Position numbers and translations under genes: made by a program. Below are positions 477 through 23,796 of a stretch of DNA of 33,742 bases, in pieces. The stretch is from assembly GCA_021162785.1 (NCBI GenBank), contig JAGGYA010000009.1, positions 1-33,742 on the forward strand, written 5' to 3'. Position 1 is the stretch's first letter. Each line of letters begins with the position of its first letter. This DNA is from Candidatus Calescibacteriota bacterium (GTDB lineage Bacteria; CAIJMQ01; JAADFP01). Below the pieces are notes generated by a model. It did no database searches, was not told where the DNA came from, and worked only from the letters and a program-made list of their open reading frames with translations.

Positions 477-1538
477 ATGATAAAATCACAAGAAGAAAAA
501 ATAAAAGAAGAAGTTAAACAAAAATATAGAACAAAAGTAACTTTTGATTTAATTGAGAACTTTCTTGAGAAACAATCCCAATTTAGTTCAATCAAGAAAA
601 TTTCTTTTGAAAAGGAATTAAAAGAAAAAACTAAAGATATTTTTGCTAAGGAAAGAGAACTCGGCATAATAGCGATTAGCCTTTGCAGGCTAAAAAATCA
701 ATATCTCTTTCTAAATCGAGTAATAGAAACAAAACTTTTTTATTTGATGCAGTCAATGATTTTTGGCTTAAACAATGACAACCATCTACTTCTTGCCTTA
801 TCTTCCAGATCACTTATCGAACATGTAGCATCCCTTGTCTATCTGATTGAATGGACGCGTAAAATCTTAGAAAAAACGAAAGGAAGCACAGAATATAAAT
901 CAATAAATGAAAATCTCAAGGAACTTTACACTATCTATAGAAAAATATTTTATGGAACCCGGTTTTTTAAGAATGAAGGATTGGTAGAAGCCATGAATGT
1001 ACTAACTTTAATTGATAAATATTTGTCTTCAGAAATTAGAGACATTAGAAAATATTATGATTATCTTTCTGATTTTGTTCATCCTAATTTTGGTAGCAAT
1101 GTGTTGGTTTCAAGTGGCGCGTTAGGAGAAGGTATCATAGATCCTCCTATTGAAGAGAAAAAAGAAATAGTTGAAAATATTCTTCGGATAACGGGCATCA
1201 TTATTAAATATCTTAATATTAAAGTATGGGAGTTTGCCTTATTAGGTATAATGATCGATAATTATCTCCAAAAAGCGCTCCATCCACAGACTACACTATC
1301 AACGCTTTTTGTTGAACCGCCACTTGAATATATAGGTGATGGGTCAACTAAAGAAACAGCTATATTTTTCACTAAGGCTACTACAAAAATGGAGCATATT
1401 ATGATGCAATACGAATTTATGCGACAAAAGAGGATTAAATCAACCATGCGATATATAGGAGCCTTAGAGGATGATTATATATATGATGTTCATAAAACCT
1501 CAAGAGGAGAAGTATGGTTCAAAGTTCCAAAAGAGTAA
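477..1538 (+). CDS. HEPN/DUF5677-like hypothetical protein
   Basis: This 353-aa soluble protein has no signal peptide. The first 60 residues are very Lys/Glu-rich and probably helical. The middle resembles DUF5677/HEPN-like helical proteins: a segment around residues 110-122 with RSLIEH followed by hydrophobics, then a Tyr-rich helix ending in LSDFVHPNFGS around residues 202-212, where the HPN matches the His motif typical of that group. HEPN proteins are often RNases or RNA-binding factors in toxin, abortive-infection or stress systems; that role is known of the superfamily and inferred here. The ATG at 477 follows GAGGG. The gene fills a single cassette between attC-like sites 1 and 2. It could equally be a cargo gene without defence function. 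Confidence 0.7.
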   Translation: MIKSQEEKIKEEVKQKYRTKVTFDLIENFLEKQSQFSSIKKISFEKELKEKTKDIFAKERELGIIAISLCRLKNQYLFLNRVIETKLFYLMQSMIFGLNNDNHLLLALSSRSLIEHVASLVYLIEWTRKILEKTKGSTEYKSINENLKELYTIYRKIFYGTRFFKNEGLVEAMNVLTLIDKYLSSEIRDIRKYYDYLSDFVHPNFGSNVLVSSGALGEGIIDPPIEEKKEIVENILRITGIIIKYLNIKVWEFALLGIMIDNYLQKALHPQTTLSTLFVEPPLEYIGDGSTKETAIFFTKATTKMEHIMMQYEFMRQKRIKSTMRYIGALEDDYIYDVHKTSRGEVWFKVPKE

Positions 1539-1633
1539 TGATTATAAAATTAATAAGACAAATAGAAGGTATTGACGGTGACAGTCGGCAGGCAACTCTT
1601 CGCAATCCTCCGGTTGCTCGGTGCTCTCGCCTC

Positions 1634-1724
1634 CACTTAACAAGTGTATATCCCACTTCGCTACCGCTCCGTCCAAATTCTTCGCTTCGCTTGGAACCTC
1701 GGATATGTCCCCGAACGTTAAGTG
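1634..1724 (+). repeat. attC-like site 2
   Basis: CACTTAAC (1634-1641) and GTTAAGTG (1717-1724) are perfect 8-bp complements and fit R'' (RYYYAAC) and R' (GTTRRRY). Inner boxes ATATCC (1648-1653) and GGATAT (1701-1706) also pair, with a few unpaired bases between R and L boxes as in attC sites. Total length is 91 bp. Outside the core, CGGCAGGCA near 1585-1593 pairs with TGCCCGCCG (1728-1736) at eight of nine positions, which lengthens the hairpin to about 150 bp. This is the best attC match of the three. Confidence 0.7.
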
Positions 1725-1791
1725 AAATGCCCGCCGTTGCCTTGGAAAGATTTAAAATATCAAAAGTCATTAACTATTATAGGAGACGAAA

Positions 1792-2535
1792 ATGGGAGAA
1801 AAATATAGGAAAATGAAGGAAATTACTCACAAGGATTATCTGAAATTTATCAAAGATAAAACATCTGTAATAATCGAAGATGTTGAAATAAAACTCCAAA
1901 AGAAGTGGAACATAAAGTCTTATGGTCCTCCAGAGGAGTATACTTCAGAACGCACAACTGTTTGGAGTTTTCCTGACCGCGGGGATTGGGCAACTCATAA
2001 AGGAAATTATAGAGGGAACTGGTCTCCATACATTCCAAGAAATCTTATTTTAAAATATACCCAGAAAGGCGATTGGGTTCTTGATCAGATGATGGGAAGC
2101 GGTACAACCTTGGTTGAAGCAAAACTGCTAGAAAGAAACGCCATCGGTGTGGATATAAATCTCGATGCTGTTATGGTGGCACAAGACCGTTTAAATTTCT
2201 CATATAACTCGCTTTTCTCTGAATACAAAGAGCCAATAATAAAAACATATTGGGGTGATGCGAGAAATCTTGATAAAATTGATGATGAAAGTATCGACCT
2301 TATAGCGACTCATCCACCTTATGCCAGTATAATTTCATATACAAAAAACAAAAAGCTTGGTGATGACCTATCACAGCTACCATTTGAGGAATATTTAAAA
2401 GAAATGCGAAAAGTGGCAGATGAATCATTCAGGGTTTTAAAACCAGGGAAAATTTGTGCAATTTTAATAGGTGATACAAGAAAACACAAGCATTATGTAC
2501 CTATTGCGTTTAGGGTTATAAGGTGGTGCGCATGA
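1792..2535 (+). CDS. DNA methyltransferase (N4-C or N6-A type), C-terminally truncated
   Basis: A 247-aa SAM-dependent DNA amino-methyltransferase. A motif X-like segment (about residues 71-86, [14 protein letters not shown]) comes first, then motif [12 protein letters not shown] (96-106, SAM binding), an acidic DIN after strand 2 (121-123), and the catalytic motif IV THPPY (173-177). In this motif order the target-recognition part should follow motif IV. Here the protein ends soon after, at AFRV then five residues and TGA, so part of the C-terminus is probably missing. The stop overlaps the ATG of the next gene (ATGA). TAGGAGA precedes the ATG. It may be inactive or depend on another specificity part. 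It lies in the same cassette as a DpnII-type nuclease fragment. Confidence 0.8.
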
Positions 2536-3497
2536 AAACACCAAATTATTTCCTTATATCTGTTTCAAATCGTAAAAATCTTGAATTATGTATGAAATAT
2601 GCATTAGCAGGATTTACTAACAGTATAAATGGCTTATGGACATATTTTGATATAGCAGAGGGGGATTATATTTCTTTTCTTTATGGAGCAAGGGTGAGAA
2701 ACCTGTATAAAGTCATTAAAAAAGTAGCTTACAAGAATGCAGAAAATCTTCCACCTTGGCCACCGGTGACTTTTAGGATGTCAGGAAATACCTATTACTT
2801 CCCTTTTAGACTATTCCTAAAACAAGAAAGAGAATTTGATGAACCTATGGTTAGACCAGAATTCTCTTATGTTGCTGAAAATTTACTATTAAGAGGTGGT
2901 TATAGAAAAACACATTTTCAAGCAGATACAATAACTTTTTATAATGTATCTGAAATGGGTAAGCCATTTGATGGTAAAACTGACTCGCTTGACTTAAAGG
3001 CTGAAACTTTTGAGCCTGAAATAACATTCCGACGAGAACTCCAAAATATTCCAGAAATATTTTACTTCAAAGAGCTAATACTTCAGTCACTCCTAAGAAA
3101 AAAGATTCGTGATTTGATATTTAATGAAATCTTAGATCATTTTAATATTGATAATAAACCCGATGAATTTGAAATATTGGGAGAAAAAGCGCTTCCTGAA
3201 GGGTTTGTTGATATATTTATTAAATTAAAACATCCAACAGGTAGGAACAAATATATATTAGTTGAGATTAAAACAGGTAGAGCTCAAAAAAGAGATATAG
3301 TCCAATTAAAAAATTATTTGAGAGAATTTAACGATGAGGCGGCCGGAGGAGTGCTAATTGCCAGAGATTTTCCTAAACATTTGCCAGATGAATCTAAAGT
3401 TTTACCAGTGAAATATAATTTTAGTCAATTGAATGAGGATTCTAAATTTACTTATAAAGAGTTACTCAATCTATTACATTTGGAGGTGATTACATGA
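2532..3497 (+). CDS. EVE/PUA-like domain fused to PD-(D/E)XK nuclease-like domain
   Basis: A 321-aa protein with two parts. Residues 1-100 ([12 protein letters not shown], then a Trp-containing segment, GDYISFLYG at 44-52 and PWPPVTFR at 75-82) resemble EVE/PUA-fold readers that bind modified bases. Residues 170-265 have a PD-(D/E)XK core: VD (D227), then VEIK (E245, K247), and a downstream QLKNYL (Q258). That combination suggests a modification-dependent or modification-sensing nuclease; the domain calls are by eye. The ATG at 2532 follows AGGTGG by five bases and overlaps the methyltransferase stop; an in-frame GTG at 2523 is a less likely start. The gene ends ATGA-coupled to the next small gene. 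Confidence 0.6.
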
Positions 3498-3739
3498 AAA
3501 AACGGTTGTTCCTTTTTCTCACGCCAGATGGGGTTACATATTCCTCGCCCAGAAAAATATATCCTGACGTTGATAACTTTCAAATATTAGGAGATAGTGA
3601 AGGTATTGATGAAGAAGAAGCTTTCGAGTCCTTTCTTCGTGAGAATAAATGGGTCTTAGATACCGATTTTAAAGAAATAATTTGTATAGAGGTGAGGATG
3701 AAAATTTCCCAAGGAAAAAGATTTGTTCTAAAGAGGTAA
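3494..3739 (+). CDS. Small conserved-looking hypothetical protein, 81 aa
   Basis: An 81-residue protein that starts with [12 protein letters not shown] and has an acidic middle with a helix ([14 protein letters not shown]), then a beta-like end ([16 protein letters not shown]). It is too hydrophilic for a membrane protein. I cannot name a family. GGAGGTGAT lies seven bases before the ATG, and the ATG overlaps the stop of the EVE/nuclease gene (ATGA), so the two are translated together. The short beta-helix layout resembles small partner or immunity proteins, but that is only an impression. Confidence 0.6.
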
Positions 3740-4383
3740 TAATAATATTTCTCATAGCAGAAAGAGTTAAAAATGGAAGGATTGATATCTTCGATCCGGA
3801 ACTGGAGCAATTCCTGATCTTTGAATTCAAACGCTCGAAAGTTAATAAAAATACAATCCCTCTCATCATAGAATTTTGCATTAAAACAGGAATTATGGAC
3901 TTATTCCAAGAAGTTAAAGATATACATGATTATCTCGTTGGTGTTGAAGTAGGCATAGACACGAACGCCAGAAAAAATAGAAGTGGAGAGATTTTTGAAA
4001 GGATGTGTCAGAAAAAGATTGAACGATTAATTGGAAAGAATTACAATATTGTAAACAATGATCCAGACTTCTCGTTATATCCCATAATCACAAAAGGAAG
4101 GAGTAAAGGGAAAACACACGATATTGTAATTTACAAGGACAATAAACCCGTCCTCATTGTTGAGTGTAATTTCTATAATGTAACTGGAAGTAAACCTATT
4201 TCAATAGCAGAGAGTTACATCGAAATGTACAGGATAGCAAAACAGCATAGAGTTGAATTTTTATGGGTAACAGACGGTCCCGCATGGCATAAAATGAGAG
4301 AGCCTCTAATTAGAAGCATGAAAGAAATAGACTGGATTCTTAACTTTAGAATGTTAAATCTCATTGGGGGGATCTTAAAATGA
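3682..4383 (+). pseudogene. DpnII-type restriction endonuclease, N-terminally truncated
   Basis: From about residue 20 the protein matches the DpnII/MboI family: FLIAERV, then GVEVGIDTNARKNRSG near the middle, HDIVIYKDNKPVLIVECNFY with the acidic residue and Glu-x-Asn of the active site, GSK, and VEFLWVTDGPAWH near the end. The family is usually close to 290 aa; here about 70-80 N-terminal residues are missing. The only upstream start is TTG at 3682, inside the 81-aa gene, and the first 17 or so residues are just that gene read in another frame. The join at about 3727-3740 therefore looks like a recombination junction. No ATG occurs before the conserved part. The product is probably inactive, unless rescued by frameshifting or a rare start. 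Confidence 0.65.
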
Positions 4384-4441
4384 TTGAGATCTACCGCGAC
4401 GGCGGGCACTCTGCGGTGCTTCGCACCTTGGTCTTCGGGTC

Positions 4442-4526
4442 TGCTAACAAGAGGATAAGTGGCTCGCTCACACTCGCCCAAATCCCGACTATCGTCCGGA
4501 CTTCGCATATCCCCGGAATGTTATAT
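4442..4526 (+). repeat. attC-like site 3 (end of array)
   Basis: TGCTAACAAGAGGATA on the left (4442-4457) and TATCCCCGGAATGTTATAT on the right (4508-4526) form an imperfect palindrome: TAAC pairs with GTTA, and GGATA with TATCC. The AACAAG start and AATGTTAT end are typical of attC sites, though R' (GTTATAT) departs from GTTRRRY. The loop shares GGCTCGCTCAC and CGCCCAAAT with site 1. Upstream, ACGGCGGGCA (4399-4408) is the exact complement of TGCCCGCCGT beside site 2, but no matching right arm remains here. It follows the DpnII fragment by about 60 bp. Confidence 0.55.
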
Positions 4527-4656
4527 GGAAAATGCAAAAAGCCCATATCTTCATAAATACCAAAATTCCCGGCCCTCAAACTTTCGGTTTTTTATAAAAT
4601 TCAAAATCAAGATACCTGTAATCTTTTTCATCCTGATTCCCCAAACAAACCTGCTT

Positions 4657-4758
4657 TTATAGGGTATAACCACAAATTATAACCCTATCTTCTTTAATCA
4701 ACTTCTCTAAGATTGAAGCCTCTGTTGTGTTTCCTTTTCCAAATATCCCTTGTTTCAT
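4657..4758 (-). pseudogene. Short remnant, possibly of a group I-intron-type PD-(D/E)XK nuclease family
   Basis: A 33-codon minus-strand frame starts with ATG and runs through GIFGKGNTTEASILEKLI before a TAA. The G-N-T-T-E-A followed by a leucine-rich helix resembles the N-terminus of small PD-(D/E)XK proteins of the type found in group I introns and mobile DNA. Further minus-strand coding-like pieces continue to about 4585 but in other frames, so the gene appears broken. The 4527-4834 stretch has no other recognisable gene. This identification is weak. Confidence 0.25.
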
Positions 4759-4818: not shown

Positions 4819-4834
4819 AAATAAAGAAATTGGT

Positions 4835-4924
4835 GGAGGGATGGCCGAGCGGTCGAAGGCGGGTGACTTGAAATCACCTGTCCGGCGGTAAGCCGGACCG
4901 GGGGTTCGAATCCCTCTCCCTCCG
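4835..4924 (+). tRNA. tRNA-Ser (TGA anticodon)
   Basis: A 90-nt class II tRNA. The acceptor stem GGAGGGA (4835-4841) pairs with TCCCTCC (4917-4923), with G as discriminator. The anticodon stem GGTGA/TCACC (4862-4866, 4874-4878) encloses CTTGAAA, giving anticodon TGA at 4869-4871. A long variable arm (about 4880-4898, stem TCCGGC/GCCGGA) is typical of tRNA-Ser. The T loop is TTCGAAT (4905-4911). CCA is not encoded. No strong terminator separates it from the next gene 27 bp downstream. Confidence 0.97.
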
Positions 4925-4951
4925 CTAATTTTTTAAAAGGGAGGAGGAATA

Positions 4952-5266
4952 ATGAGAGCAAGTAGGAAGAGATACTGGATTTTAAAGAGTATTGGGGTAG
5001 CCTCCGTTTTCAAAATGTTTGGAGGGACTTTTTTTCAATTTGGACTGATAGTGGGGCTGATCCTTTCACTGCTCTTCCCTGAAGAGCTTTATCTTCCAAT
5101 AATTGGCACAATCCCCTCAGGAATTATTGGTGCGTTCCTTTATGCAGTATTTTGGGGTCTTGCAGTAGGACTTATTGCAGGCCTTCTCGGAGCTATTTAC
5201 AATATTTTTGCTTTGCTCTTTGGTGGTATCGTTTTAGCGGTGGAAGAAAAGGAGATAAGGGAATGA
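4952..5266 (+). CDS. Small inner-membrane protein (DUF3566-like layout)
   Basis: A 104-aa membrane protein. A basic N-terminus (MRASRKRYWILKS) is followed by hydrophobic segments at about residues 18-42 and 60-98, the latter Gly/Ala-rich and long enough for one or two helices, and a charged tail EEKEIRE. The layout resembles DUF3566-type small membrane proteins, but I cannot confirm the family. GGGAGGAGG precedes the ATG by five bases. The stop overlaps the start of the CsgG-family gene (ATGA), so the two are translationally coupled and may work together at the envelope. Confidence 0.75.
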   Translation: MRASRKRYWILKSIGVASVFKMFGGTFFQFGLIVGLILSLLFPEELYLPIIGTIPSGIIGAFLYAVFWGLAVGLIAGLLGAIYNIFALLFGGIVLAVEEKEIRE

Positions 5267-6153
5267 AAAGAATCTTTTTACTCACATTTGTTTTACTTCT
5301 TACCTTCACTTTTTTGGGAGAAGAGCGAATACTTAAAAAAGTAATTGCAGTAATGGAGTTGGAGAATAAAACAGGCTGGAGGGGGAGAGAACTTGGAGAA
5401 GGACTGACTGAGATGCTCATCACTTCCCTTCAGGAGACGGGAAGGTTCATCATTGTGGAAAGAAAAGCATTGAAGGATATACTCCAGGAACAGAAACTGG
5501 GAGAAGAAAAAAGACTCACTCCCCAAACTGCTCCCAAGAGGGGTAGGCTCCTGGGTGCCCAGATACTGGTAAGAGGTGCTATCACCGAATTTGAGCAGAA
5601 AAAGGGTGGAGGTGGGATTGGTTTAATGTACAAAGGTATTGGAATTGGTGGTGGGAAGTTGAGAGCCCATGTAGCATTGGATATTCGCCTTTACGATACC
5701 GCAACAGGTGAAATCATTAGCTCAAAAAGAGCAGAAGCTGAAGCTGTAAGTAAGGGATTGGCAGGAGGAGTGAGTATTGAAGGGATAACCATTGGCGGAG
5801 CAGAATTTGAGAAGACCCCTTTGGGAAAAGCAGCAAGGGAAGCCATAGAGAAAGCAGTGGAATATATCGTTGAGGAAATGGAAAAACAACCCTGGGTGAG
5901 TAGAATAATAAAAGTTAAGGATAATCTGGTTTACATGGTTGGGGGTGAGGATATGGGGATAAAAGAGGGGGATATTTTCTATGTATATTCTCTTGGTGAA
6001 GAACTTATAGATCCAGCCACAGGTCTATCCTTAGGCAGGGAAGAGGAGAAGGTGGGGAAGATCCGGGTGAAAGAAGTAAAGGAAAAGTATTCCAAGGCGG
6101 AGATTATAGAGGGGAAGGGATTTAAATCAGGGGACCTAATCCGGGATCGATAA
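5263..6153 (+). CDS. CsgG/HfaB-family exported protein
   Basis: A 296-aa secreted protein with a signal peptide at residues 1-18 (MKRIFLLTFVLLLTFTFL). There is no lipobox cysteine, unlike E. coli CsgG. The mature part begins with the family's core: VIAVMELENKTG, LGEGLTEMLITSL, GRFIIVERKALKDILQEQKLG, then a Gly-rich stretch and VALDIRLYDTATGEIISS. After the CsgG domain (to about residue 210) comes a 75-residue beta-rich domain (WVSRIIKVKDNLVYMVGG to the end) seen as a C-terminal add-on in many curli-assembly-like proteins of uncultured bacteria. No other curli genes are nearby, so curli secretion itself is not implied. The start at 5263 fits the signal peptide and ATGA overlap. Its 3' end overlaps convergent pabC by 18 bp. 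Confidence 0.8.
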   Translation: MKRIFLLTFVLLLTFTFLGEERILKKVIAVMELENKTGWRGRELGEGLTEMLITSLQETGRFIIVERKALKDILQEQKLGEEKRLTPQTAPKRGRLLGAQILVRGAITEFEQKKGGGGIGLMYKGIGIGGGKLRAHVALDIRLYDTATGEIISSKRAEAEAVSKGLAGGVSIEGITIGGAEFEKTPLGKAAREAIEKAVEYIVEEMEKQPWVSRIIKVKDNLVYMVGGEDMGIKEGDIFYVYSLGEELIDPATGLSLGREEEKVGKIRVKEVKEKYSKAEIIEGKGFKSGDLIRDR

Positions 6154-6942
6154 TCTTTCCACTCTCAGAAACTTCTCCTTTAAGAAGAGAGTTAAAGGGA
6201 AATTATTGTTTTTAAAGAACTTTTCCACTTCCCTGCAGGGCATAACCCCAGCCAAAGAGGAGGTAAAGAAGATCTCCTCACATTGTTTCAAATCCTCAAG
6301 ATGAAGTTTTGCCTCTTTCACCTTAATCCCTTCTCTTTCAGCGATTTCCAGAACCTTCTTCCTTACTATACCGGGTAAAGCACCACTTTCTACCGGTGGG
6401 GTCAGGAGTATGCCATTTTTAACAATGAAAATATTGGAATAAGCTCCCTCAGCCACTTCCCCCCGGGTATTGAGAAGTATGGCTTCATCGTAACCTTTCT
6501 CCTCTGCTTCTCTCCTGGCCAGGCGGTTTTCATAGAAATTCATCACCTTGTGACGGGTAAGAGGCGAGAATTCATTTCTCCGGAAAGAAGAGATAATTGC
6601 ACGGAAAGCATCTCTGTCTCCATAAGGCAGGGAAGGTTTCACACTGAGATATAGAGAAATAGGGGTGAGGTAAAAATGGAGGACACCTTCCCGGATGCTG
6701 TTCCTTTTAATGAGTTCTTTCACTGCTTCCTTTACTTCCTCCTTTTCGAAACGCAAGGGAATAGAGAGTCTCAAAGCAGAAGAGGAGAGTCTTTCCCAGT
6801 GTTCTTCAAGAAAACAGGGTCCACCATCGATTACTTTAATAGTTTCGAAAAGGCCTTCTCCATAAAGGAAGGCAGGGTCCTCTACAAAAACCCTGATTTC
6901 CTCATATGGATGGAATTTCCCGTTCCACCAGATTTTTCTCAT
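6136..6942 (-). CDS. pabC: Aminodeoxychorismate lyase (class IV PLP enzyme)
   Basis: A 268-aa fold-type IV PLP enzyme that converts 4-amino-4-deoxychorismate to p-aminobenzoate and pyruvate in folate synthesis. Seen: LYGEGLFETIKV near residues 27-37, the PLP lysine K132 in RHKVMNFYENRLARREA, EGAYSNIF at 165-172 and GALPGIVRKKVLE. D-amino-acid or branched-chain aminotransferases share this fold, but the gene overlaps pabB by about 40 bp, which favours PabC. I chose ATG at 6942 because GAGGTG lies eight bases upstream; a TTG at 6957 is possible. It stops at TAG and overlaps the convergent CsgG-family gene. Confidence 0.85.
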   Translation of the reverse strand: MRKIWWNGKFHPYEEIRVFVEDPAFLYGEGLFETIKVIDGGPCFLEEHWERLSSSALRLSIPLRFEKEEVKEAVKELIKRNSIREGVLHFYLTPISLYLSVKPSLPYGDRDAFRAIISSFRRNEFSPLTRHKVMNFYENRLARREAEEKGYDEAILLNTRGEVAEGAYSNIFIVKNGILLTPPVESGALPGIVRKKVLEIAEREGIKVKEAKLHLEDLKQCEEIFFTSSLAGVMPCREVEKFFKNNNFPLTLFLKEKFLRVERLSIPD

Positions 6943-9656: not shown

Positions 9657-10283
9657 TTATAACAGGAATTTAGTAAAAAGGATAAATTCAAGATTCCCTA
9701 TGGAATGAAAGATTATGGGAGCGAGAAGGGAACCTGACTTCTCCCTCAGGAAGGCAAAAACTATTCCTCCCAAGAAAGGAAGTAAAAGTGAAATCCCACT
9801 CCAGAAATGGAAGATGGCAAAGATCAGTGAAGAGAGAAGAATCCCCCAGCTTACTCCCCATCTTTCTTTTAAAAAGGGATAAAGAACCCCTCTGAAAACA
9901 ATTTCCTCCACCACCACAGGAAGAAGAAGGAGAATAATAATCTCAGAAAAGGAGACTTCTGGAAGAGGGAATTTAAGGAATTGTTTGAGTTCTGGATAGG
10001 GAAGGAAGTGGATGATGGAGAGAAAGAAAAATAAGACTAACGATGTTCCCACTCCCCATCCAGCTCCCCTCAAGTTTCTCCCTTCTCCCCATACCCACTT
10101 CCATTTCTCTCTTACAAAAAAGAAGAGAACAAAGAGATCCACCCCCCTTAAGGAAAGAGTAACTCTAAGTGGATGAGCAGTAAAAAATTCCTTCCCAATA
10201 TAGACACCTACCAGCTCAATCCCTATGAGTAAGAGAAAAAGAAAAAGGATTTCTTTAAGTTCCCACTGAAATTCTCTTTCCAT
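9657..10283 (-). CDS. CPBP-family intramembrane metalloprotease
   Basis: A 208-aa multi-pass membrane protein with the three motifs of CPBP (CAAX/Rce1-type, formerly Abi) proteases: EEIVFRG at 126-132, a conserved His in FAIFHFW (H159), and FHSIGN at 192-197 (H193, N197). Hydrophobic segments lie near residues 11-30, 47-57, 78-95, 113-125, 145-160 and 163-178. Family members cleave membrane or prenylated substrates; some act in bacteriocin immunity. The true substrate is unknown. ATG 10283 was chosen as the first ATG giving a compact N-terminus; an upstream start at 10319 is possible. It overlaps the end of the preceding membrane-protein gene by 29 bp. Confidence 0.85.
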   Translation of the reverse strand: MEREFQWELKEILFLFLLLIGIELVGVYIGKEFFTAHPLRVTLSLRGVDLFVLFFFVREKWKWVWGEGRNLRGAGWGVGTSLVLFFFLSIIHFLPYPELKQFLKFPLPEVSFSEIIILLLLPVVVEEIVFRGVLYPFLKERWGVSWGILLSSLIFAIFHFWSGISLLLPFLGGIVFAFLREKSGSLLAPIIFHSIGNLEFILFTKFLL

Positions 10284-11328
10284 CCCATCCACGCTTTTTA
10301 AGCTCTTTCCAGACCACAAGTCTGGGGAACCACCTCATCTCCATTCTAAGATATTCTTTTAAATAAGATGTGCTTCCTTCAAGGGATGATAGTTTTTCAA
10401 TGGCTTTCAGGGATAAAAAGACTTTTTCTCTCAGTGCTTTAGCTATAAGCTCCTCTGGTGAGGAAGGAAGGGGAGGTGCGCTTCTTAAAGGCAGAAAGAG
10501 AGTTAAAAGCGAAAGATTGAGAAGGAAAGTAAGGTAAAACTTGAGCCTTTTTCTTCCCCAGTAACGGATGGGGAAACTGAGAAGCGAGACCACCAGCAAC
10601 AGGAAATAAAGGGGGAAAAAGAGGAAAAGGGAAAGGGAGAGTAGGGTTCTCAGTATTTTGAGATAAAAGGGCATCCTCAGAAGAGCTTCCCTCTCCCTTT
10701 TGGAAAGAGGAAATTTGAAGAAGGCATCTATCCCTTTCCTCCTCCCTTCCACAACCAGAATTCCTTCCCTTTTAGCCCACTGCATAAACTCCTGAGGGAC
10801 ATTTCCTGATACACCTACAACTTTTATTTCTTTCTCCCAGAAATCTTTTATCCCTTCCGCTGCCAGAGGAGAGTAAAGGTAATACCAGTTAGTGATTTCT
10901 TGACCAAGAAAGGAAGGGAAAAGGAACTTCTCCCTTGCCACCCTAAAGAAATCCGGAAACTCTTTCAGTTTACCCGATAAATGGAGTAAGGGGAGGGGAA
11001 AGAGAAGGAGGAGAGAAGTTAGCCAGAGAAGGAGTTTCTTATCCTTCATCCCCTTAACCACAATCCAGATTACCCATATCAGTGTTCCCAGTAGAAGCCC
11101 CAGGGTAAGAGAATAAAAGAAGGAGGAATTAAAAATATAGAAATGTCCAATCCCCCTCAAAACCAGCCCATCCATTATAGGCTCAAAACCCTTCTCTTTC
11201 ACAATATCCATCTTGAAAGTAAAGTGGGCAAGGCACTTCTCAAGATAAATATGAAAGAAAGGGGTAAGAAAGAAAATAATAATTGCCACCAGACTCCACC
11301 ATTTATCCAGAACCTTTGTCCACCTCAT
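10255..11328 (-). CDS. Multi-pass membrane protein of unknown function
   Basis: A 357-aa protein I do not recognise. Hydrophobic segments lie near residues 12-30, 75-95, 105-120, 230-255 and 265-285. A soluble, probably extracytoplasmic loop of about 100 residues sits between the third and fourth (KLKEFPDFFRVAREK through DAFFKFPLSKRERE). The cytoplasmic tail is basic (KELKKRGWDGKR). ATG at 11328 was preferred over a TTG at 11346; GAGGT lies 12 bases upstream. It is the first gene of a compact minus-strand cluster ending in pabC, with small gaps or overlaps throughout, so it is probably co-transcribed. The CPBP protease directly downstream may be its partner. Confidence 0.75.
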   Translation of the reverse strand: MRWTKVLDKWWSLVAIIIFFLTPFFHIYLEKCLAHFTFKMDIVKEKGFEPIMDGLVLRGIGHFYIFNSSFFYSLTLGLLLGTLIWVIWIVVKGMKDKKLLLWLTSLLLLFPLPLLHLSGKLKEFPDFFRVAREKFLFPSFLGQEITNWYYLYSPLAAEGIKDFWEKEIKVVGVSGNVPQEFMQWAKREGILVVEGRRKGIDAFFKFPLSKREREALLRMPFYLKILRTLLSLSLFLFFPLYFLLLVVSLLSFPIRYWGRKRLKFYLTFLLNLSLLTLFLPLRSAPPLPSSPEELIAKALREKVFLSLKAIEKLSSLEGSTSYLKEYLRMEMRWFPRLVVWKELKKRGWDGKRISVGT

Positions 11329-11379
11329 CCTATGAGTATACCTCAAAAATGATGAGTTTCCCTTAGTTTATCTCCATCT

Positions 11380-11408
11380 TTGTTATCACTGCTCTTTTTG
11401 GGTATAAT
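11380..11408 (+). promoter_or_regulatory. sigma70-type promoter for the repeat-protein gene
   Basis: TTGTTA (11380-11385), a 17-bp spacer and a perfect TATAAT (11403-11408) sit in the divergent intergenic region. The transcript would start near 11415 and have a leader of about 50 nt, with AGGGAGG before the ATG at 11467. Confidence 0.7.
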
Positions 11409-11466
11409 TAAAAGTGGAGTTGGGTAGGTTTCTTTTCTATTCAGCTTCATCTAAGGGAGGGAAAAA

Positions 11467-13044
11467 ATGTGTGTTAGATTGGAAAGAGGGGTAATTTTTA
11501 TATTTTTACTCCTTACTGCTTCTTTTACCTTCGCCCAGCCACAATTCAACTGGGGAAGTGAAGGTGTGATTGTCTCTGCTGAGTCAGAATGGGAAGTATT
11601 TCCTCAGCTTGTCTCGGATAATCATGGAGGAGCTATAATCGTCTGGATGAAGCAGGTAGAGGAAGGAATATTTGACATTTATGCCCAAAGAATCGACACT
11701 AATGGGAATCTTTGCTGGGATGAGAGTGTGGCTATCTGCACTGCAGTTAATAATCAGAGTATTGAACCACCTCCTCCGGATGAATTCACCTATCCCATAC
11801 ACTCCATAATCCCGGATGGTGAAGAAGGAGCCATAATTGTCTGGATGGACTATAGAAACGGTCCAGAACAAGGTGATATTTATGCCCAGAGAGTTGATAG
11901 TCAGGGTAACATTCTCTGGGGAGATAATGGCGTTCCGGTATGCACTGCAGATGGAGACCAGATTTATCCTCAAATTGTTCCTGATACGCATGGAGGAGCA
12001 ATAATTGTCTGGCTTGATTACAGAAATAACCCTGATGAAGGTGATATATACGCCCAGAGGATTAATTCTCACGGTGAAAGGGTCTGGGGAGAAGACCTTC
12101 CCATTTGCACAGCAAACGGAGACCAGGGTTATCCTCAAATAATTCCTGACGGTGAAGGAGGAGCAATAATAACCTGGCATGATCCAAGAGATGGGACCTG
12201 GGACATTTATGCCCAGAGGATAACCGCTGGAGGAGATATATTGTGGGGTGAAAATGGGAAATGCATCTGTGCAGGGTATGATGAACAGCCAAACAATGGT
12301 TGCTGGTATCCCGTGATTGCTCCCTATCCAGGTGGTGGTGCAGTAATTGCCTGGTATGACAACCGTCGTGCTGTAGAATCAGGTTTTGATCTGGACTGGG
12401 ATGTATTTGTCCAGAGAGTGGATGAGAATGGTAATCTCCTATGGGATGAAGGTATCCCCATCACTTATGAAACCGGCCGTCAGGAAGATGCGCGTGTCTA
12501 TGTGGATGCAGAGGGTAATACCTATATCTTCTGGGTAAGCGATCCAACAGAAGAAGCAGGTGGTGACGATGATGAGGCTAATGATTACTTTGATCTCTAT
12601 GTCCAGAAACTCGATGCAGAAGGTAACAAACTCTGGGGAGAAAATGGTATTCCCCTATGCACTGCTCCCCTTGAACAATCACTTCTGGATGCTGTGTTGG
12701 TACCTTCGGGAGGTGTGGTAGCAGTATGGGCAGATGGGAGGAATGGTGTACCACTTATTTATGGTCAATGGCTTTCTTCTGCTGGTACCTCACTATGGGG
12801 AACAAATGGTTATCCTCTGGAGCCCTTAGAAGGTGTGAGTGGATTCCCACGAATAATAACTGCTTCCCCTCAGGTTATAATCACCTGGATGCATTCTCCT
12901 ACGGTTCCTGAAGGAGATAATCCTCCGGAAGATCTTAATATCCATGCCCAGAAGATAACCCTTGTCCCTCCCTCTGAAGAAGAAGAGGAAGGTGGAGGTG
13001 GCGGGGGAGATGGGGGTTGTTTCATACACTTGCTGAAGCTATAA
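11467..13044 (+). CDS. Secreted eight-repeat, propeller-like protein with truncated CFI-box tail
   Basis: A 525-aa exported protein with a signal peptide (residues 1-23, ending FAQ). The body is about eight repeats of 45-60 residues, each running roughly YPQIIPDGEGGAIIxW, then D-x-R, then DIYAQR, a G-N, LWGE and ICTA. The first four are close copies and the last four diverge. Eight WD-like beta repeats suggest a beta-propeller. A Glu/Gly-rich linker follows, then GDGGCFI and five residues before the stop. GGCFI is the start of the CFI-box C-terminal domain (GGCFIATAA type), so the tail looks truncated. Its promoter is at 11380-11408. It is probably an extracellular or surface protein; ligand unknown. 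Confidence 0.8.
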   Translation: MCVRLERGVIFIFLLLTASFTFAQPQFNWGSEGVIVSAESEWEVFPQLVSDNHGGAIIVWMKQVEEGIFDIYAQRIDTNGNLCWDESVAICTAVNNQSIEPPPPDEFTYPIHSIIPDGEEGAIIVWMDYRNGPEQGDIYAQRVDSQGNILWGDNGVPVCTADGDQIYPQIVPDTHGGAIIVWLDYRNNPDEGDIYAQRINSHGERVWGEDLPICTANGDQGYPQIIPDGEGGAIITWHDPRDGTWDIYAQRITAGGDILWGENGKCICAGYDEQPNNGCWYPVIAPYPGGGAVIAWYDNRRAVESGFDLDWDVFVQRVDENGNLLWDEGIPITYETGRQEDARVYVDAEGNTYIFWVSDPTEEAGGDDDEANDYFDLYVQKLDAEGNKLWGENGIPLCTAPLEQSLLDAVLVPSGGVVAVWADGRNGVPLIYGQWLSSAGTSLWGTNGYPLEPLEGVSGFPRIITASPQVIITWMHSPTVPEGDNPPEDLNIHAQKITLVPPSEEEEEGGGGGGDGGCFIHLLKL

Positions 13045-13121: not shown

Positions 13122-15059
13122 ATGGAGAAGGAAGTGTTTCGTCTTGACCCACTGGAAGGAGAAATTCCCTATCCTGGAGAAGAGGAAATAAGTAAATGGT
13201 TAAGGGCACTTGTCCGAGGAGAGATTTCCATTTCCTTTGCACCAGGCCGGTCAGTTATAAAACCCTCTGATCCTCTGGTTGTAGGACAGACCTATGATTT
13301 TGAATTCATCTACTATCCAGAAGAGGTTGAACTTAAGGAAGGTTGTGAAATAAAGTTTTCCATTCCCCGCACCTGGACTCAACCCAAATTCAAAGAGGGG
13401 GAACCTGGTTATGTGAAAGCAATTACCTCCTCTGGAGCAAAAACAGAAATTTACCTCACTCAGAATGAAAATCTCACCTGGTGGGTGAATGTGAGAATTG
13501 TAGAAGGTCTTGTCCCCCCAGATGGTTTTGTAAAGATTGAGTATAGAAATGTAACCATTCAGCGTTTCCCCCAGAAAGAATGGATCAACTGGAGGAATTC
13601 CTTAAGGGTTATCCTGGACTTTAAAGGAGAGAGAAATTACAGGGAATTCAAAGTGGTGAAGTCAGAAAAACAGATAAAGCCTGTGATTATTTCTTCTCCT
13701 CCTGCCAGGTTTCTTGTTGCCTGTCATCCAGTGGTAAAACCTGGTGAGAAGCTCCTTTTAAGATTCTCCACCCTGGACATCTACAACAATCCTGCCTATC
13801 CTCCCCCTGAAGGAAGAATATTCGTGGCGGAAGTAACCGACCCTTATAAGCCTATAGCTATGAAGTATCTGAAGAGAGAAGAAAATGGAAGAGGCAGGAT
13901 AGAACTTAAAGCACCGGAAGAAGAAAAAATATGGAGAATTTCTCTTTCCAATATAAAGACCACACTTATTGGATTTGCCCCTCCCATAGTGGTTACCAGC
14001 AGGAAGGAAAGATTCAATGTTTACTTTGGTGATACCCATGCAAAAACTGGTTTAACCGATGGCCTGGGGACACCTGAGGAATACTTCACCTATGCCAGAG
14101 ATCATGCTCTACTTGATTTCGCTGCCATTGCTGACCACAATTGCACAGAAGCAAGTTACATAGAAGGCCCTTTCTACACAGAACTGCCCGATGAAGCTTT
14201 TGAAAAAATAAAGGAAGCCTGTGAAAAGTTCAATGAGCCAGGAAGATTTGTTACTTTACATGGATTTGAACAAAACCTAATTGAAGGATACCCTGGTCAC
14301 AGAAACATCTACTTCCGTGGTATTCCAGATAAAATCTTTCGGGGAAGAACACTGGAAGAACTCTACGCCTACCTGGAAGGGAAGGAAGCTCTGGTAATAC
14401 CCCATCACACGGTCATCTGGGGTAGTCGCCCCCATCTGGATAATCCAAAATATGAGAGAGTCCTTGAAATCTACTCCCAGCATTGTTCTTCAGAAATAAA
14501 AGGTTCCCCAATTAACAATCCTCAAACTCTTAAAAATAAAGCGGAGACAGGTATGAGTGCTCAGGAAATACTGGCAAAAGGTTATCGGGTGGGATTTATT
14601 GCCAGTTCCGATAACCATCACGGTGCTCCAGGAGTCCATGCCTATCCTTCCCGATTCACCAATCTCACCTATCATGGAGGACTGGCTGCAGTAATTGCTC
14701 CTGAACTCACTCGTGAGGCCATCTTTGATGCTCTCTATGAAAGAAGATGTTATGCTACCACAGGAGTGAGGATCTATCTGGATTTCAGAATCAATGGGGA
14801 GTTGATGGGTTCAGAATTGAAGGTTGAGAAAGGAGAAAAAATAATATTGGAAGTCTTTGCCCTGGGAACATCCCCCATTGCTAAAGTGGAAGTATTGAAA
14901 AACAATCGAGTAATCTCAGTCTTCCCCAACGGAGTATCTGACCAGATAGAATTTACCCTGGAGGATAAAGTAAATCAAAATTCCTTCTACTATATCCGGC
15001 TCACTCAGGTAGATAGAAATATGGCCTGGTCAAGTCCCATCTGGGTGGATATAAAATAA
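13122..15059 (+). CDS. DUF3604 (PHP-superfamily-like) protein
   Basis: A 645-aa protein. The first 300 residues are beta-sandwich-like and unrecognised. The rest matches DUF3604: FGDTHAKTG near residues 302-310, DFAAIADHN near 333-341, IPHHTVIWG near 424-432 and FIASSDNHHGAPG near 490-502. The spaced His and Asp residues are those expected of a PHP-type metal centre, so it may be a hydrolase or phosphoesterase; the substrate is unknown. The C-terminal 95 residues form another beta domain. There is no signal peptide, so it is probably cytoplasmic. AAGGAGGT is optimally spaced before the ATG. It starts 77 bp after the repeat-protein gene and may be in the same transcript. It converges with the lipoprotein gene; no clear terminator hairpin lies in the 32-bp gap. 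Confidence 0.88.
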   Translation: MEKEVFRLDPLEGEIPYPGEEEISKWLRALVRGEISISFAPGRSVIKPSDPLVVGQTYDFEFIYYPEEVELKEGCEIKFSIPRTWTQPKFKEGEPGYVKAITSSGAKTEIYLTQNENLTWWVNVRIVEGLVPPDGFVKIEYRNVTIQRFPQKEWINWRNSLRVILDFKGERNYREFKVVKSEKQIKPVIISSPPARFLVACHPVVKPGEKLLLRFSTLDIYNNPAYPPPEGRIFVAEVTDPYKPIAMKYLKREENGRGRIELKAPEEEKIWRISLSNIKTTLIGFAPPIVVTSRKERFNVYFGDTHAKTGLTDGLGTPEEYFTYARDHALLDFAAIADHNCTEASYIEGPFYTELPDEAFEKIKEACEKFNEPGRFVTLHGFEQNLIEGYPGHRNIYFRGIPDKIFRGRTLEELYAYLEGKEALVIPHHTVIWGSRPHLDNPKYERVLEIYSQHCSSEIKGSPINNPQTLKNKAETGMSAQEILAKGYRVGFIASSDNHHGAPGVHAYPSRFTNLTYHGGLAAVIAPELTREAIFDALYERRCYATTGVRIYLDFRINGELMGSELKVEKGEKIILEVFALGTSPIAKVEVLKNNRVISVFPNGVSDQIEFTLEDKVNQNSFYYIRLTQVDRNMAWSSPIWVDIK

Positions 15060-21967: not shown

Positions 21968-22033
21968 CTGCACAACCATCCACTTCGGCCTCAAATCATT
22001 CCTCCCCTTACCCCAATCCAGAAAACCCTTATA

Positions 22034-22042
22034 TGCTATAAT
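22034..22042 (+). promoter_or_regulatory. Extended -10 promoter for a leaderless transcript
   Basis: TGCTATAAT (22034-22042) is an extended -10 element. The ATG at 22049 begins seven bases after its end, where transcription should start. No good -35 is present, and no Shine-Dalgarno precedes the ATG. Confidence 0.55.
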
Positions 22043-22048
22043 TCCTGG

Positions 22049-22594
22049 ATGGAAAAATTACCACAAGAATTTGCCCGATTAAAAGATATAGAAAATCCCT
22101 TATTCAAAAAACTCTACTTCCTGGGAATCCTTACCAAATACCTGGAAAGAAAAAATATAAAACCCATAATAGTTGGAGGATATGCAGTAGAGTTTTACAC
22201 ACTCGGCTCCTATTCCACAGGTGATATTGATATAGTAACCGAAGACTACCATGAAATAACCAACACCTTGCAAAATTGGGGTTTCCACAAAATAGGAAGA
22301 ATTTGGGTAAATCCTCACTTGGATATAGAAATAGATATAGTGGGGGAGACATTAGCAGGAGATTATTCAAAAATCTCACAAGTAGAAGTAGAGGGCCTCA
22401 AAGTATATCTCATTGGTATTGAAGACTTAATAATAGATAGACTCAACGCATGGGTATGGTGGAAATCTGAAGAAGATAAACAGTGGGCTAAACAGCTCTG
22501 GAAATTGCACCAGGGAGAAATAGATAAAGATTACCTGAAAAAAAGAGCAAAAGAGGAAAATATCGTTAAAGCCCTGGAGGAGTTAGAAAAATGA
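22049..22594 (+). CDS. Nucleotidyltransferase-like protein (DUF6036/AbiEii type)
   Basis: A 181-aa protein of the nucleotidyltransferase superfamily. PIIVGGYAVEFYTLGSYSTGDIDIV (about residues 42-66) has the GG, then S-x-D-x-D, the metal-binding pattern of the fold. A later D within LDIEIDIVG supplies the third acidic position. Such small proteins often act as toxins or antitoxins in accessory regions, or modify tRNA or proteins; the target here is unknown. Start 22049 is the first base expected in the mRNA, so translation is leaderless. The start of the next gene overlaps its stop (ATGA). Confidence 0.75.
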   Translation: MEKLPQEFARLKDIENPLFKKLYFLGILTKYLERKNIKPIIVGGYAVEFYTLGSYSTGDIDIVTEDYHEITNTLQNWGFHKIGRIWVNPHLDIEIDIVGETLAGDYSKISQVEVEGLKVYLIGIEDLIIDRLNAWVWWKSEEDKQWAKQLWKLHQGEIDKDYLKKRAKEENIVKALEELEK

Positions 22595-22818
22595 GGAAAT
22601 ACAACTTAAGAGAATACTTAAAACAAAACACCCCAATTTTTGCAATTAAAAGAGCAGAGTCCAACCGCCCCCGCACCTTGCGAAGAAAACCTCGCCCACC
22701 TCAAGAATGGGAAGTTTTCCTCCTTCTCACCAGAACCCGCTGGGAAAAATGGGAAAAAGAAGGAAAAATCAAAAAACTCGGTAAAAGAAAATACAGAATA
22801 ACCCTTCAACCCTCCTAA
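22591..22818 (+). CDS. Small basic partner protein, 75 aa
   Basis: A 75-residue, very basic protein (many Arg, Lys) with RPRTLRRKPRPPQEW in the middle and a Lys-rich end. It has no membrane segment. It may bind nucleic acid or the acidic partner. It overlaps the nucleotidyltransferase stop by ATGA, so the two are made together, as in a toxin-antitoxin-like pair. No family recognised. Confidence 0.5.
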   Translation: MRKYNLREYLKQNTPIFAIKRAESNRPRTLRRKPRPPQEWEVFLLLTRTRWEKWEKEGKIKKLGKRKYRITLQPS

Positions 22819-22923
22819 TAAAACTCAAACCCCTGAAAACCTCATTCCCTAAACCCCAGCAAAAATCTTTCAAATCACAAGATAAAATAAACCCTCCTTC
22901 AAAAATACTAAGATAATTTCCCG

Positions 22924-22947
22924 ATTTGGTATAAAATGATACCAAAT
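22924..22947 (+). promoter_or_regulatory. Inverted-repeat operator over the -10 of an HTH remnant
   Basis: ATTTGGTAT and ATACCAAAT form a perfect 9-bp inverted repeat with a 6-bp centre. It overlaps a TATAAA -10 element, and the ATG at 22948 begins right after it. It would suit autorepression by the DNA-binding protein encoded downstream. Confidence 0.5.
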
Positions 22948-23216
22948 ATGGAAACTATCACCAAAGAAAAAGCTATAAAAATTCTCCTAAGGAATATCAA
23001 CACTTATATATGCTATCAAAAAGAACTGCTACTAATGATTTGGAGAAAATCGTGCAGAAAGGGATATTTGAGAAAATTGGAACCAGGGGTAAAGGGAGAT
23101 TCTATACAATCAAAAGGGCAATAATTGGGCAAAAGAGTAAGGAATTCTCACCTGAATTCCCACCAAAAAGCACACGATTTATTTTCAAAAATCTCAGAAA
23201 AACAAAGCCAATTTAG
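22948..23216 (+). pseudogene. Frameshifted winged-helix (Fic/AlbA-type C-terminal HTH) gene
   Basis: The first frame reads METITKEKAIKILLRNINTY, the first helices of a winged helix. The conserved part continues in another frame: MLSKRTATNDLEKIVQKGIF, then GTRGKGRFYTIKR. The second is the hallmark of the C-terminal HTH of Fic-domain and AlbA_2 ATP-binding proteins. A shift at about 23005-23015 is needed to join them. Only the HTH part is present; the catalytic domain is absent. The gene is therefore both truncated and frameshifted, although the operator upstream is intact. A single-base sequencing error could explain the shift but not the missing domain. Confidence 0.6.
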
Positions 23217-23232
23217 TCTCCTTAAGGAAGAA

Positions 23233-23248
23233 AGCATTTTAAAATGCT
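23233..23248. repeat. 16-bp perfect palindrome
   Basis: AGCATTTTAAAATGCT is perfectly self-complementary. It lies between gene remnants in a stretch (23217-23429) with no intact gene. It may be an operator or chance AT-rich symmetry. Confidence 0.35.
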
Positions 23249-23320
23249 ATAAAGAAAGACTATTTTGAGATTCCTCAAGGGTGGAAAGATTTAGCAGAAG
23301 AAAATTACGAACAAATCTAA
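23243..23320 (+). pseudogene. Short C-terminal coding remnant
   Basis: A frame ending in TAA at 23318-23320 encodes KKDYFEIPQGWKDLAEENY, which looks like real protein. There is no start codon or upstream continuation. I cannot assign a family; it is probably the tail of a deleted gene. Confidence 0.25.
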
Positions 23321-23429
23321 AAAACAAAATAAATCTCAAGCAAATCCCTCTTTTTAATGATGAATTGCCAAAATAACTTGCATTTCTAAAATTTTTATTG
23401 TAAGCTTTACTACCGAGGGGGATAGAACT

Positions 23430-23657
23430 ATGAAAACAGCGGTAACAAAAAGGGGACAGACAGTAATCCCTGCTCCACTCAGAAAAAAATATGGAATAAA
23501 CCAAAACACCTGGCTTCAATGGCTGGATACAGGAGAAGGAATAAAAGTAGAGCCAATTCCCAGGGATGTAATCACCGCTTTAAGGGGAATGGGAAAAGGA
23601 AAAAAGCTTGTAGAAAGAATCATAAAAGAGAGAAAATTTGATGCTGAAAGAGAGTGA
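23430..23657 (+). CDS. VapB/AbrB-type antitoxin
   Basis: A 75-aa AbrB/MazE/SpoVT-like DNA-binding protein. TAVTKRGQTVIPAPLRKKYGI at the start is the swapped-hairpin signature. The C-terminal half is charged and would bind a toxin. GAGGGGGAT precedes the ATG. The adjacent toxin gene, overlapping its end by 17 bp, is only a PIN-domain stub. VapB proteins normally repress their own operon and neutralise VapC; here the antitoxin seems to be orphaned. Confidence 0.85.
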   Translation: MKTAVTKRGQTVIPAPLRKKYGINQNTWLQWLDTGEGIKVEPIPRDVITALRGMGKGKKLVERIIKERKFDAERE

Positions 23658-23706
23658 ACAGAAATATCTTCTTGATACCTCTGCTCTTCTCACCCTTATA
23701 GAATAG
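23641..23706 (+). pseudogene. Truncated VapC PIN-domain toxin
   Basis: ATG at 23641 starts MLKESEQKYLLDTSALLTLIE, the first strand and catalytic Asp of a PIN-domain RNase (LLDTSAL). An in-frame TAG at 23704-23706 follows. Beyond the stop, residues no longer resemble a PIN domain (the remaining 100 or so residues are missing), and the promoter of the ATPase gene begins within 60 bp. It is therefore a deleted remnant and cannot act as an RNase. It overlaps the VapB end by 17 bp, the usual operon layout. Confidence 0.7.
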
Positions 23707-23760
23707 GAAGAAATAACTTCCAAACCCACCACACCTCAAATTTCCTTACTAAATTTCGCA

Positions 23761-23793
23761 TTGACACCAAAATTAGTAATGCTAAAATTAGTA
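23761..23793 (+). promoter_or_regulatory. Promoter with direct-repeat operator for the DUF4143 ATPase
   Basis: TTGACA (23761-23766), a 16-bp spacer and TAAAAT (23783-23788) make a strong promoter. Two copies of AAAATTAGTA (23769-23778 and 23784-23793), 15 bp apart, overlap the spacer and -10 and look like a repressor site. The ATG at 23797 starts nine bases after the -10, so the mRNA is nearly leaderless. Confidence 0.6.
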
Positions 23794-23796
23794 TAG

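Follow-up and report, generated by a model that had tools for sequence, protein, structure and literature searches.

A short glycine-linked CFI tail on secreted bacterial proteins and a membrane protein-CPBP protease gene pair that may process it

A secreted propeller protein of a Candidatus Calescibacteriota bacterium ends in a glycine-rich linker and the eight residues CFIHLLKL, and ends of this kind recur on unrelated secreted proteins of other bacteria. The short tail is Gly-rich, reads C-F-I-x-x-L and is followed by a stop codon usually 7–10 residues after the Cys. On balance we favour the reading that GG-CFIHLLKL is complete as it stands, a short C-terminal signal for sorting or processing that resembles a CaaX box on an exported protein, and that it is probably handled by a membrane protein (MP) and a CPBP protease encoded next to the propeller gene. 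The co-occurrence of tail and MP-CPBP rests on about three lineages, uncorrected for shared ancestry. The window, that is the whole stretch of DNA analysed, comprises the 33,742 nt of contig JAGGYA010000009.1 (C23) of assembly GCA_021162785.1, which amounts to 949 kb and is 64 % complete.

The propeller gene (11467–13044, plus strand) is one closed ORF of 525 aa, stop included, with an ATG start and a purine-rich ribosome-binding site upstream in the sequence. By eye, the N-terminus is a predicted Sec-type signal peptide (approximately 11467–11535, plus strand; MCVRLERGVIFIFLLLTASFTFA), and residues 4–22 form a helix in the structure model. Eight repeats are counted by the motif [YFH]xQ[RKW]; their mean pairwise alignment score of 70.9 so far exceeds that of shuffled sequences (13.5, SD 1.1; maximum of 200, 17.4) that they are not due to chance. 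The motif count, the scores and the signal peptide bear out the sequence-only reading of a secreted protein with eight degenerating propeller repeats. Its distinction between units 1–4, said to be alike, and diverged units 5–8 also stands (41–57 % identity among the former, 22–45 % in pairs with any of the latter), although an extra stretch lies before unit 2.

The structure model (pLDDT 78, pTM 0.81; alignment of only three rows) is all-beta except for the signal helix and a few short helices, and residues 504–525 are unordered. Its best Foldseek matches in the PDB are enzymes that we take to be beta-propellers (E ~1e-8; TM-scores 0.3–0.6 among the first five matches). Structure prediction, proposed earlier as the check on an eight-bladed propeller, agrees with the fold through the all-beta model and the propeller matches, but none of these templates confirms eight blades; the predicted blade count follows from the repeats. 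No PDB entry was matched by the sequence itself. An NCBIfam scan gave sub-threshold matches only, two of them to propeller families and none to the CFI-box, and the protein lies below the cut-offs of the SBBP/LipL53-type and TIGR04275 propeller families (TIGR04275, 38.3 against 85 bits; NF047494, 30.1 against 400). No homologue was found in six genomes of the same class. Two of the closest homologues, both encoded in genome G045 (39 % and 31 % identical overall), stop after the last blade with no CFI at the end. Related propellers at loci L007 (G007), L004 and L019 (both G031) run on into PNPFNP-type C-terminal domains, which by eye we take to resemble type IX secretion domains; NCBIfam reports no such domain for L007, which is cut at the locus end.

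The propeller protein terminates in ...EEEEEGGGGGGDGGCFIHLLKL. A Glu/Gly-rich linker (EEEEEGGGGGGDGG; 12976–13017, plus strand), read from the sequence and unordered in the model, leads into the short tail CFIHLLKL (13018–13041, plus strand), eight residues from Cys to stop. The tail reads GDGGCFIHLLKL and is followed by TAA, so that, much as first described, the protein stops just past GGCFI, five residues further on. A Gly-rich linker and then C-F-I close to the C-terminus (12976–13041) is also the arrangement of CFI-box-CTERM, and the normal CFI-box length of about 70 residues assumed at the outset agrees with the 69 positions of its model (NCBIfam NF041770, cut-off 40 bits). The propeller protein has no match to NF041770 at E≤1, and its tail lacks the core FRDxxLL..G..FV..YY..SP..A; a related core is present in the neighbouring MP. 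Searching the whole assembly in six frames for CFI-boxes at E≤10 gave two matches, a full CFI-box at the end of another protein (33097–33291) and a weak one at 10846–10950 (minus strand), and no CFI-box remnant past 13018 in any frame. Behind the CFI another frame runs on for about 30 codons, stopping short of the next gene; a frameshifted CFI-box was considered and rejected, since the six-frame search finds no CFI-box in this open frame. The first match, the only full CFI-box found in the assembly (33094–33342, plus strand), is a contrast case, as it ends a 194-aa protein without evident signal peptide. This gene lies near the contig edge, and a similar 128-aa CFI-box protein is encoded in G001 (L133, 5365–5751); both proteins may be cytoplasmic, with a role unlike that of secreted CFI-box proteins.

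Downstream of the propeller gene, after 77 bases, lies a gene for a CehA/McbA-DUF3604 metallohydrolase (13122–15059, plus strand) with no evident role in a tail system. In the window Rfam yields a single match at gathering threshold, a tRNA gene (4835–4924, plus strand). About 1.2 kb (22594–23797) hold no ORF of 100 aa; the AT skew is 0.27 over 22001–24000, and no direct repeats of at least 18 bases were found in 22500–23900.

The short tail recurs. GCFI places were searched in the window's genome (G000) and six relatives and kept if the upstream frame was open for more than 40 codons; all 12 places in G000 and all 15 in G001 were read, 15 of 21 in G002, and only part of those in G003–G006. 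Three further short Gly-rich ends appeared, CFIHLLWRDTRKRWWF in the window's genome and CFISILGRRYFRRR and CFISTLGQGWMRWFR in G002, a member of the same family. They end an Ig/PKD-like protein read as 1919 aa, a protein of 2201 aa and a C25 peptidase, the two long ones being of surface type. When 84,980 species genomes were scanned, the pattern GGGGCFI[ST-like]x[L/F-like], no stop required, matched 40 times, with about 6 expected by chance on our own arithmetic for uniform base composition. Thirty-five are protein ends (upstream frame reaching the locus edge in three), 34 in Deltaproteobacteria, including Desulfosarcina, Desulfamplus and Desulfatitalea, and one in G002. The stop falls within 10 residues of the Cys in 31 of these 35 and at exactly 8 in 19. 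The other five matches look like chance (one Bacillus, two Akkermansia, a Bathyarchaeote and a Phycisphaerales), and their genomes were named as controls ahead of the MP test. Across all loci 46 distinct short ends are listed, with a modal length of 8 (18/46); this list still includes the chance matches L163 and L169 and probably one spurious frame, L331 (minus strand). Leucine at tail position 6 is partly imposed by the scan pattern, and it occupies that position in 8 of 12 tails found without demanding it in the class of genome G307. Every tail search had CFI, and with it the Cys, fixed in its pattern. The strict tail pattern, applied to 386 genomes, matched in five, the real tails being only two places in G002; G000 and G307 escaped it, since it calls for an S/T-like residue behind CFI and then L/F.

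Proteins bearing the tail are diverse. A crude signal-peptide rule is passed by 22 of 28 ORFs, a set that includes two chance matches (one pass, one fail). Among the domains of eight tail proteins chosen by eye are C25 (two), C10, trypsin, cyclophilin and subtilase. Choice-of-anchor domains are placed beside varying anchors, as the name implies; choice-of-anchor U (NF041766) precedes the tail in four of the five tail proteins among six proteins scanned, those four having been picked for looking like it. This domain stands next to the tail, is not the signal itself and is absent from the window's propeller. The search for other secreted proteins ending close after GGCFI, suggested with the original observation, thus succeeded on unrelated proteins in several bacterial lineages.

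Desulfosarcina alkanivorans has a complete genome, of whose 46 GCFI places, all read, one is a short tail, CFISALSN. Five further Gly-rich CFI ends of this genome have longer tails (L191, L216, L217, L220, L234), of which L191, L216 and L217 resemble a Cys signature, hydrophobic helix and basic residues. At locus L160 two neighbouring genes (1073–4696 and 4827–6737, both plus strand) encode secreted proteins whose ends are the short tail CFISTLAHGL and the intermediate CFIETVGYGSRP, which looks like the first part of a CFI-box. No CFI-box above cut-off was found in D. alkanivorans or in two other short-tail genomes (0/3).

Upstream of the propeller gene, across a 120-base intergenic region (11347–11466, from the ORF positions), lies a divergent operon of two genes. 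The first encodes MP (10255–11346, minus strand; 363 aa from TTG, with an alternative start possible near 11328), and the second, overlapping its end, a predicted CPBP/Rce1-like glutamic intramembrane protease (9657–10319, minus strand) with EEIVFR, FAIFH and HSIGN. The CPBP scores 74.7 bits against PF02517 (cut-off 22.4), with EExxxR, FxxxH and HxxxN all present. The NCBIfam equivalogs considered were MrtS, MrtJ, MrtX, MrtC, MrtP, MrtA and MroQ; the window's CPBP is below every cut-off shown (58.7 against 130 bits for MrtS, 45 against 75 for MrtJ, 35.5 against 195 for MrtC), and the best E-values of 21 other CPBPs imply the same for them. All 22 CPBPs of one alignment (A4) keep the three motifs, of which only FxxxH and HxxxN are independent observations because EExxxR served to pick the proteins. 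Judged by model and sequence, MP has N-terminal membrane helices followed by a core and further membrane helices; most members then have HEAT-like repeats. Foldseek gave no fold match for MP in the PDB (best E 0.85; model pLDDT 69), the PDB sequence matches listed for MP fall in the HEAT repeats, and the CPBP sequence had no PDB match. Weak CFI-box matches in G001, G002, Desulfosarcina and Desulfosudis proved to be the same MP-CPBP gene pair. Across 22 pairs, MP distances correlate with CPBP distances (r 0.94, permutation p 0.0005), which genes inherited as a pair would lead one to expect.

The weak CFI-box match next to the propeller gene is MP itself: residues 133–167 (10846–10950, minus strand) match CFI-box positions 18–52 by profile. 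Profile-profile alignment of CFI-box and MP covers 36 ungapped columns (probability 91 %, P 1e-6), and 14 of 25 MPs match NF041770 at E≤0.01. R23, L27, G33, Y40, Y41 and A48 of the CFI-box correspond to R138, L142, G148, Y155, Y156 and A163 of MP, and these six columns are conserved to at least 94 % in both alignments. The MP profile also found the full CFI-box in genome G348 unprompted. One group has the core fused to CFI and the other has it within a separate protein, so that core and CFI peptide may act together. It is conceivable, if somewhat short of probable, that the CFI-box is a substrate-fused copy of the peptide-handling core of a dedicated sorting machine, the core being supplied either in cis or in trans, by MP with a CaaX-type protease, in which case the substrates would be reduced to a short, extracytoplasmic, CaaX-like CFIxxL tail.

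The distribution of MP largely follows that of the tail. A profile of MP was found in 34 of 44 genomes, namely 31 of the 32 short-tail genomes of the scan and G000–G002, and in none of the five controls or of four same-class relatives with CFI-boxes. G074 is a second copy of G002, and G060, G061 and G002 had contributed to the profile; leaving these out gives 28/29. Fisher's exact test on 30/31 against 0/5 gives 1.6e-5, with shared ancestry ignored and controls drawn from other phyla. A CPBP gene is adjacent to MP in 26 of 27 genomes, the exception being L258; this count takes 30 of the 34 MP loci, less the duplicate and two cut loci (L271, L273), and becomes 21/22 without the five genomes that had defined the pair. 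CPBP lies upstream of MP in L252 and L261. A search of 386 genomes (327 genera) with a larger MP profile matched in 69, of which four were counted as having MP: only in G000–G002 and G307 is the match full-length or nearly so. The core match in G348 is the full CFI-box noted above, and the remaining matches listed fall in the HEAT part, none starting before profile position 328.

G307, picked by MP alone, then showed three short tails, 11 of its 12 GGCFI places having been read. Among the nine genomes examined in its class, MP is present in five, with CPBP adjacent in 5/5; short tails occur in all five and in none of the four MP-negative genomes, where none of 13 GGCFI places, all read, is a tail. 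Besides G307, tails make up 2 of 5 GGCFI places in G423, 1 of 4 read (of 6) in G424, 2 of 4 (of 5) in G425 and 4 of 4 (of 5) in G426. Three candidates in MP-negative genomes with GGCFI and a nearby stop (L348, L349, L359) were rejected as tails, with fewer than 30 open codons upstream. Three of the MP-negative genomes of this class have full CFI-boxes and one has neither; counted over both classes, 7 of the 8 same-class relatives that lack MP carry full CFI-boxes. Neither of the two GGCFI places in G348 is a tail. Being small, the G307 class is presumably not the class of the Desulfobacterales.

Two genomes break the pairing. G001 has MP and no short tail among 15 GCFI places, and G073 has many tails, with MP not found. 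No tail genes were found near MP in 20 other genomes (~307 kb), so that adjacency is seen only in this window; two matches to the tail pattern near MP lie in frames of 70 and 75 aa and are taken to be spurious. The CPBPs beside MP in the G307 class read EDxxF[IV] or EDxxxI in place of EExxxR in 5/5 cases, with HxxxN kept. They lie at L274 (815–1513), L340 (815–1537), L341 (788–1507) and L343 (746–1510) on the minus strand and at L342 (2976–3707) on the plus strand, each with EDxxx[IV], and this replacement makes their activity uncertain.

The original observation had left two accounts of the short end, a CFI-box cut to its conserved Cys pentapeptide or a short form that is itself a processing signal. 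The first does not survive, as no remnant exists in any frame and the short form recurs at narrow lengths on unrelated proteins; the second, still as a putative signal, gains from this recurrence, the C-terminal position, choice-of-anchor U and the co-occurrence with MP-CPBP. That mutation truncated the CFI-box of the propeller in this genome is accordingly very improbable. GGCFI does agree with the start of a CFI-box, and genuine truncations occur elsewhere, as L372 (G429) illustrates, where the CFI-box ends after 33 residues (CFIATAACGTPLAEEVIWLSRFLDDVLAKRNRQ). Yet nothing of a CFI-box follows 13018 in any frame, unrelated proteins share the short form within a narrow range of lengths, two of the closest propeller homologues have no CFI-box, and the three short-tail genomes examined have none above cut-off.

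More serious, though still unlikely, is that the tail is a real C-terminal signal with another reader, such as type II secretion or a disulfide or thioester formed through the Cys, and that MP-CPBP is shared by lineage only. The separation of tail genes from MP-CPBP in 20 other genomes, the exceptions G001 and G073 and a window tail too short to span a membrane all fit such a reader. Against it, the pairing holds in about three lineages and divides the members of two classes, those of the G307 class cleanly and those of the window's class with G001 as the exception, and MP is tied to the CFI peptide by sequence because it has the CFI-box core. A further alternative, which we hold to be less likely again, is that CFIxxL is left uncleaved and either docks on MP or another receptor or marks proteins for turnover by a periplasmic protease. 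A short, hydrophobic, Gly-linked end is plausible as a docking or degradation tag, and all five G307-class CPBPs depart from EExxxR; on the other hand, the 22 CPBPs of alignment A4 keep FxxxH and HxxxN (EExxxR being the selection criterion), and a degradation tag on so many kinds of secreted enzyme would make little sense.

Under the favoured reading of a signal handled by MP and CPBP, the propeller would be exported by Sec, as its sequence supports, and its tail captured by MP (with CPBP) at the outer face of the inner membrane. By analogy with Rce1 and myxosortase, the tail Cys would then be modified, most likely with lipid, and the CPBP protease would cut just past it, as Rce1 does on the CaaX box and as is proposed for MrtX on MYXO-CTERM. 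The protein would thereafter be held at the membrane or cell surface through its modified C-terminal Cys and flexible Gly linker. CFI-box proteins would carry the core in cis with the CFI peptide, and short-tail proteins would use the MP core in trans.

CaaX proteins are cytoplasmic, their last four residues being C-a-a-X, and Rce1 cleaves them at a prenylated Cys. Like the CaaX box, the short tail has a Cys followed by two hydrophobic residues close to the very C-terminus, and its candidate protease belongs to the Rce1 family; the differences are that the protein is exported, to judge by its signal peptide, and that the tail is usually 7–10 residues long (8 here) rather than 4. With CFI-box-CTERM (NF041770) the tail shares the Gly-rich stretch and C-F-I at the protein end, and the CFI-box core (positions about 18–53) is common to MP, the candidate partner of the short tail. 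In contrast, the CFI-box has about 70 residues against 8 in the window tail, the propeller does not match its model, and CFI-boxes mark MP-negative relatives rather than the short-tail genomes tested, although the window's own genome has one.

The nearest kind, as far as the sequences indicate, is the myxosortase group, to which the putative short-tail system is akin but from which it is distinct. In PMC11980579, the CPBP protease MrtX is paired with exported MYXO-CTERM proteins whose signal has an invariant Cys, and MrtJ forms a two-gene neighbourhood with a single target. Both systems combine a CPBP-family protease with exported Cys-signal proteins, and the MrtJ gene arrangement is comparable to the window's; MrtJ/JDVT-CTERM and MrtS/Synerg-CTERM, by their NCBIfam names, are related pairs. 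The window tail also has a Cys (CFI being fixed in the tail searches), and the presence of CPBP appears to track the tail through MP with an adjacent CPBP, except in G001 and G073. Hydrophobic-helix ends like those of MYXO-CTERM follow Gly-CFI in Desulfosarcina, e.g. at L191 and L217. Unlike MYXO-CTERM, the window tail of 8 residues has no transmembrane helix, no arginine-rich end and one basic residue; unlike myxosortase systems, the operon has the extra membrane protein MP and a CPBP below the NCBIfam cut-offs. The absence of a membrane helix, the extra protein and the CFI-box link set the short-tail system apart. We know of no invariant Cys in the GlyGly-CTERM signal. GlyGly-CTERM (PMC3237569, PMC6219818) resembles the short tail as a Gly-rich C-terminal signal of exported proteins, many targets being served by one membrane protease, rhombosortase, and differs in that this is a serine rhomboid protease and that the signal includes a hydrophobic region. 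None of the NCBIfam or Pfam models listed describes the short tail or the MP-CPBP operon, and the matches listed from the open-access literature contain nothing on the short tail, the CFI-box or the operon.

The short tail seems to be a hitherto undescribed tag that marks proteins for cell-surface processing. If the proposal is true, a new C-terminal sorting signal would be recognised in sulfate reducers and other lineages, together with a candidate protease and partner protein; to our knowledge it would be the shortest Cys-containing signal of this kind. As the MP-CPBP operon consists of two small genes, the idea is directly testable. It would account for the ending common to many unrelated secreted enzymes and surface proteins of these lineages, and would give a first lead to the role of the CFI-box, a C-terminal domain to which, as far as we know, no role has been assigned.
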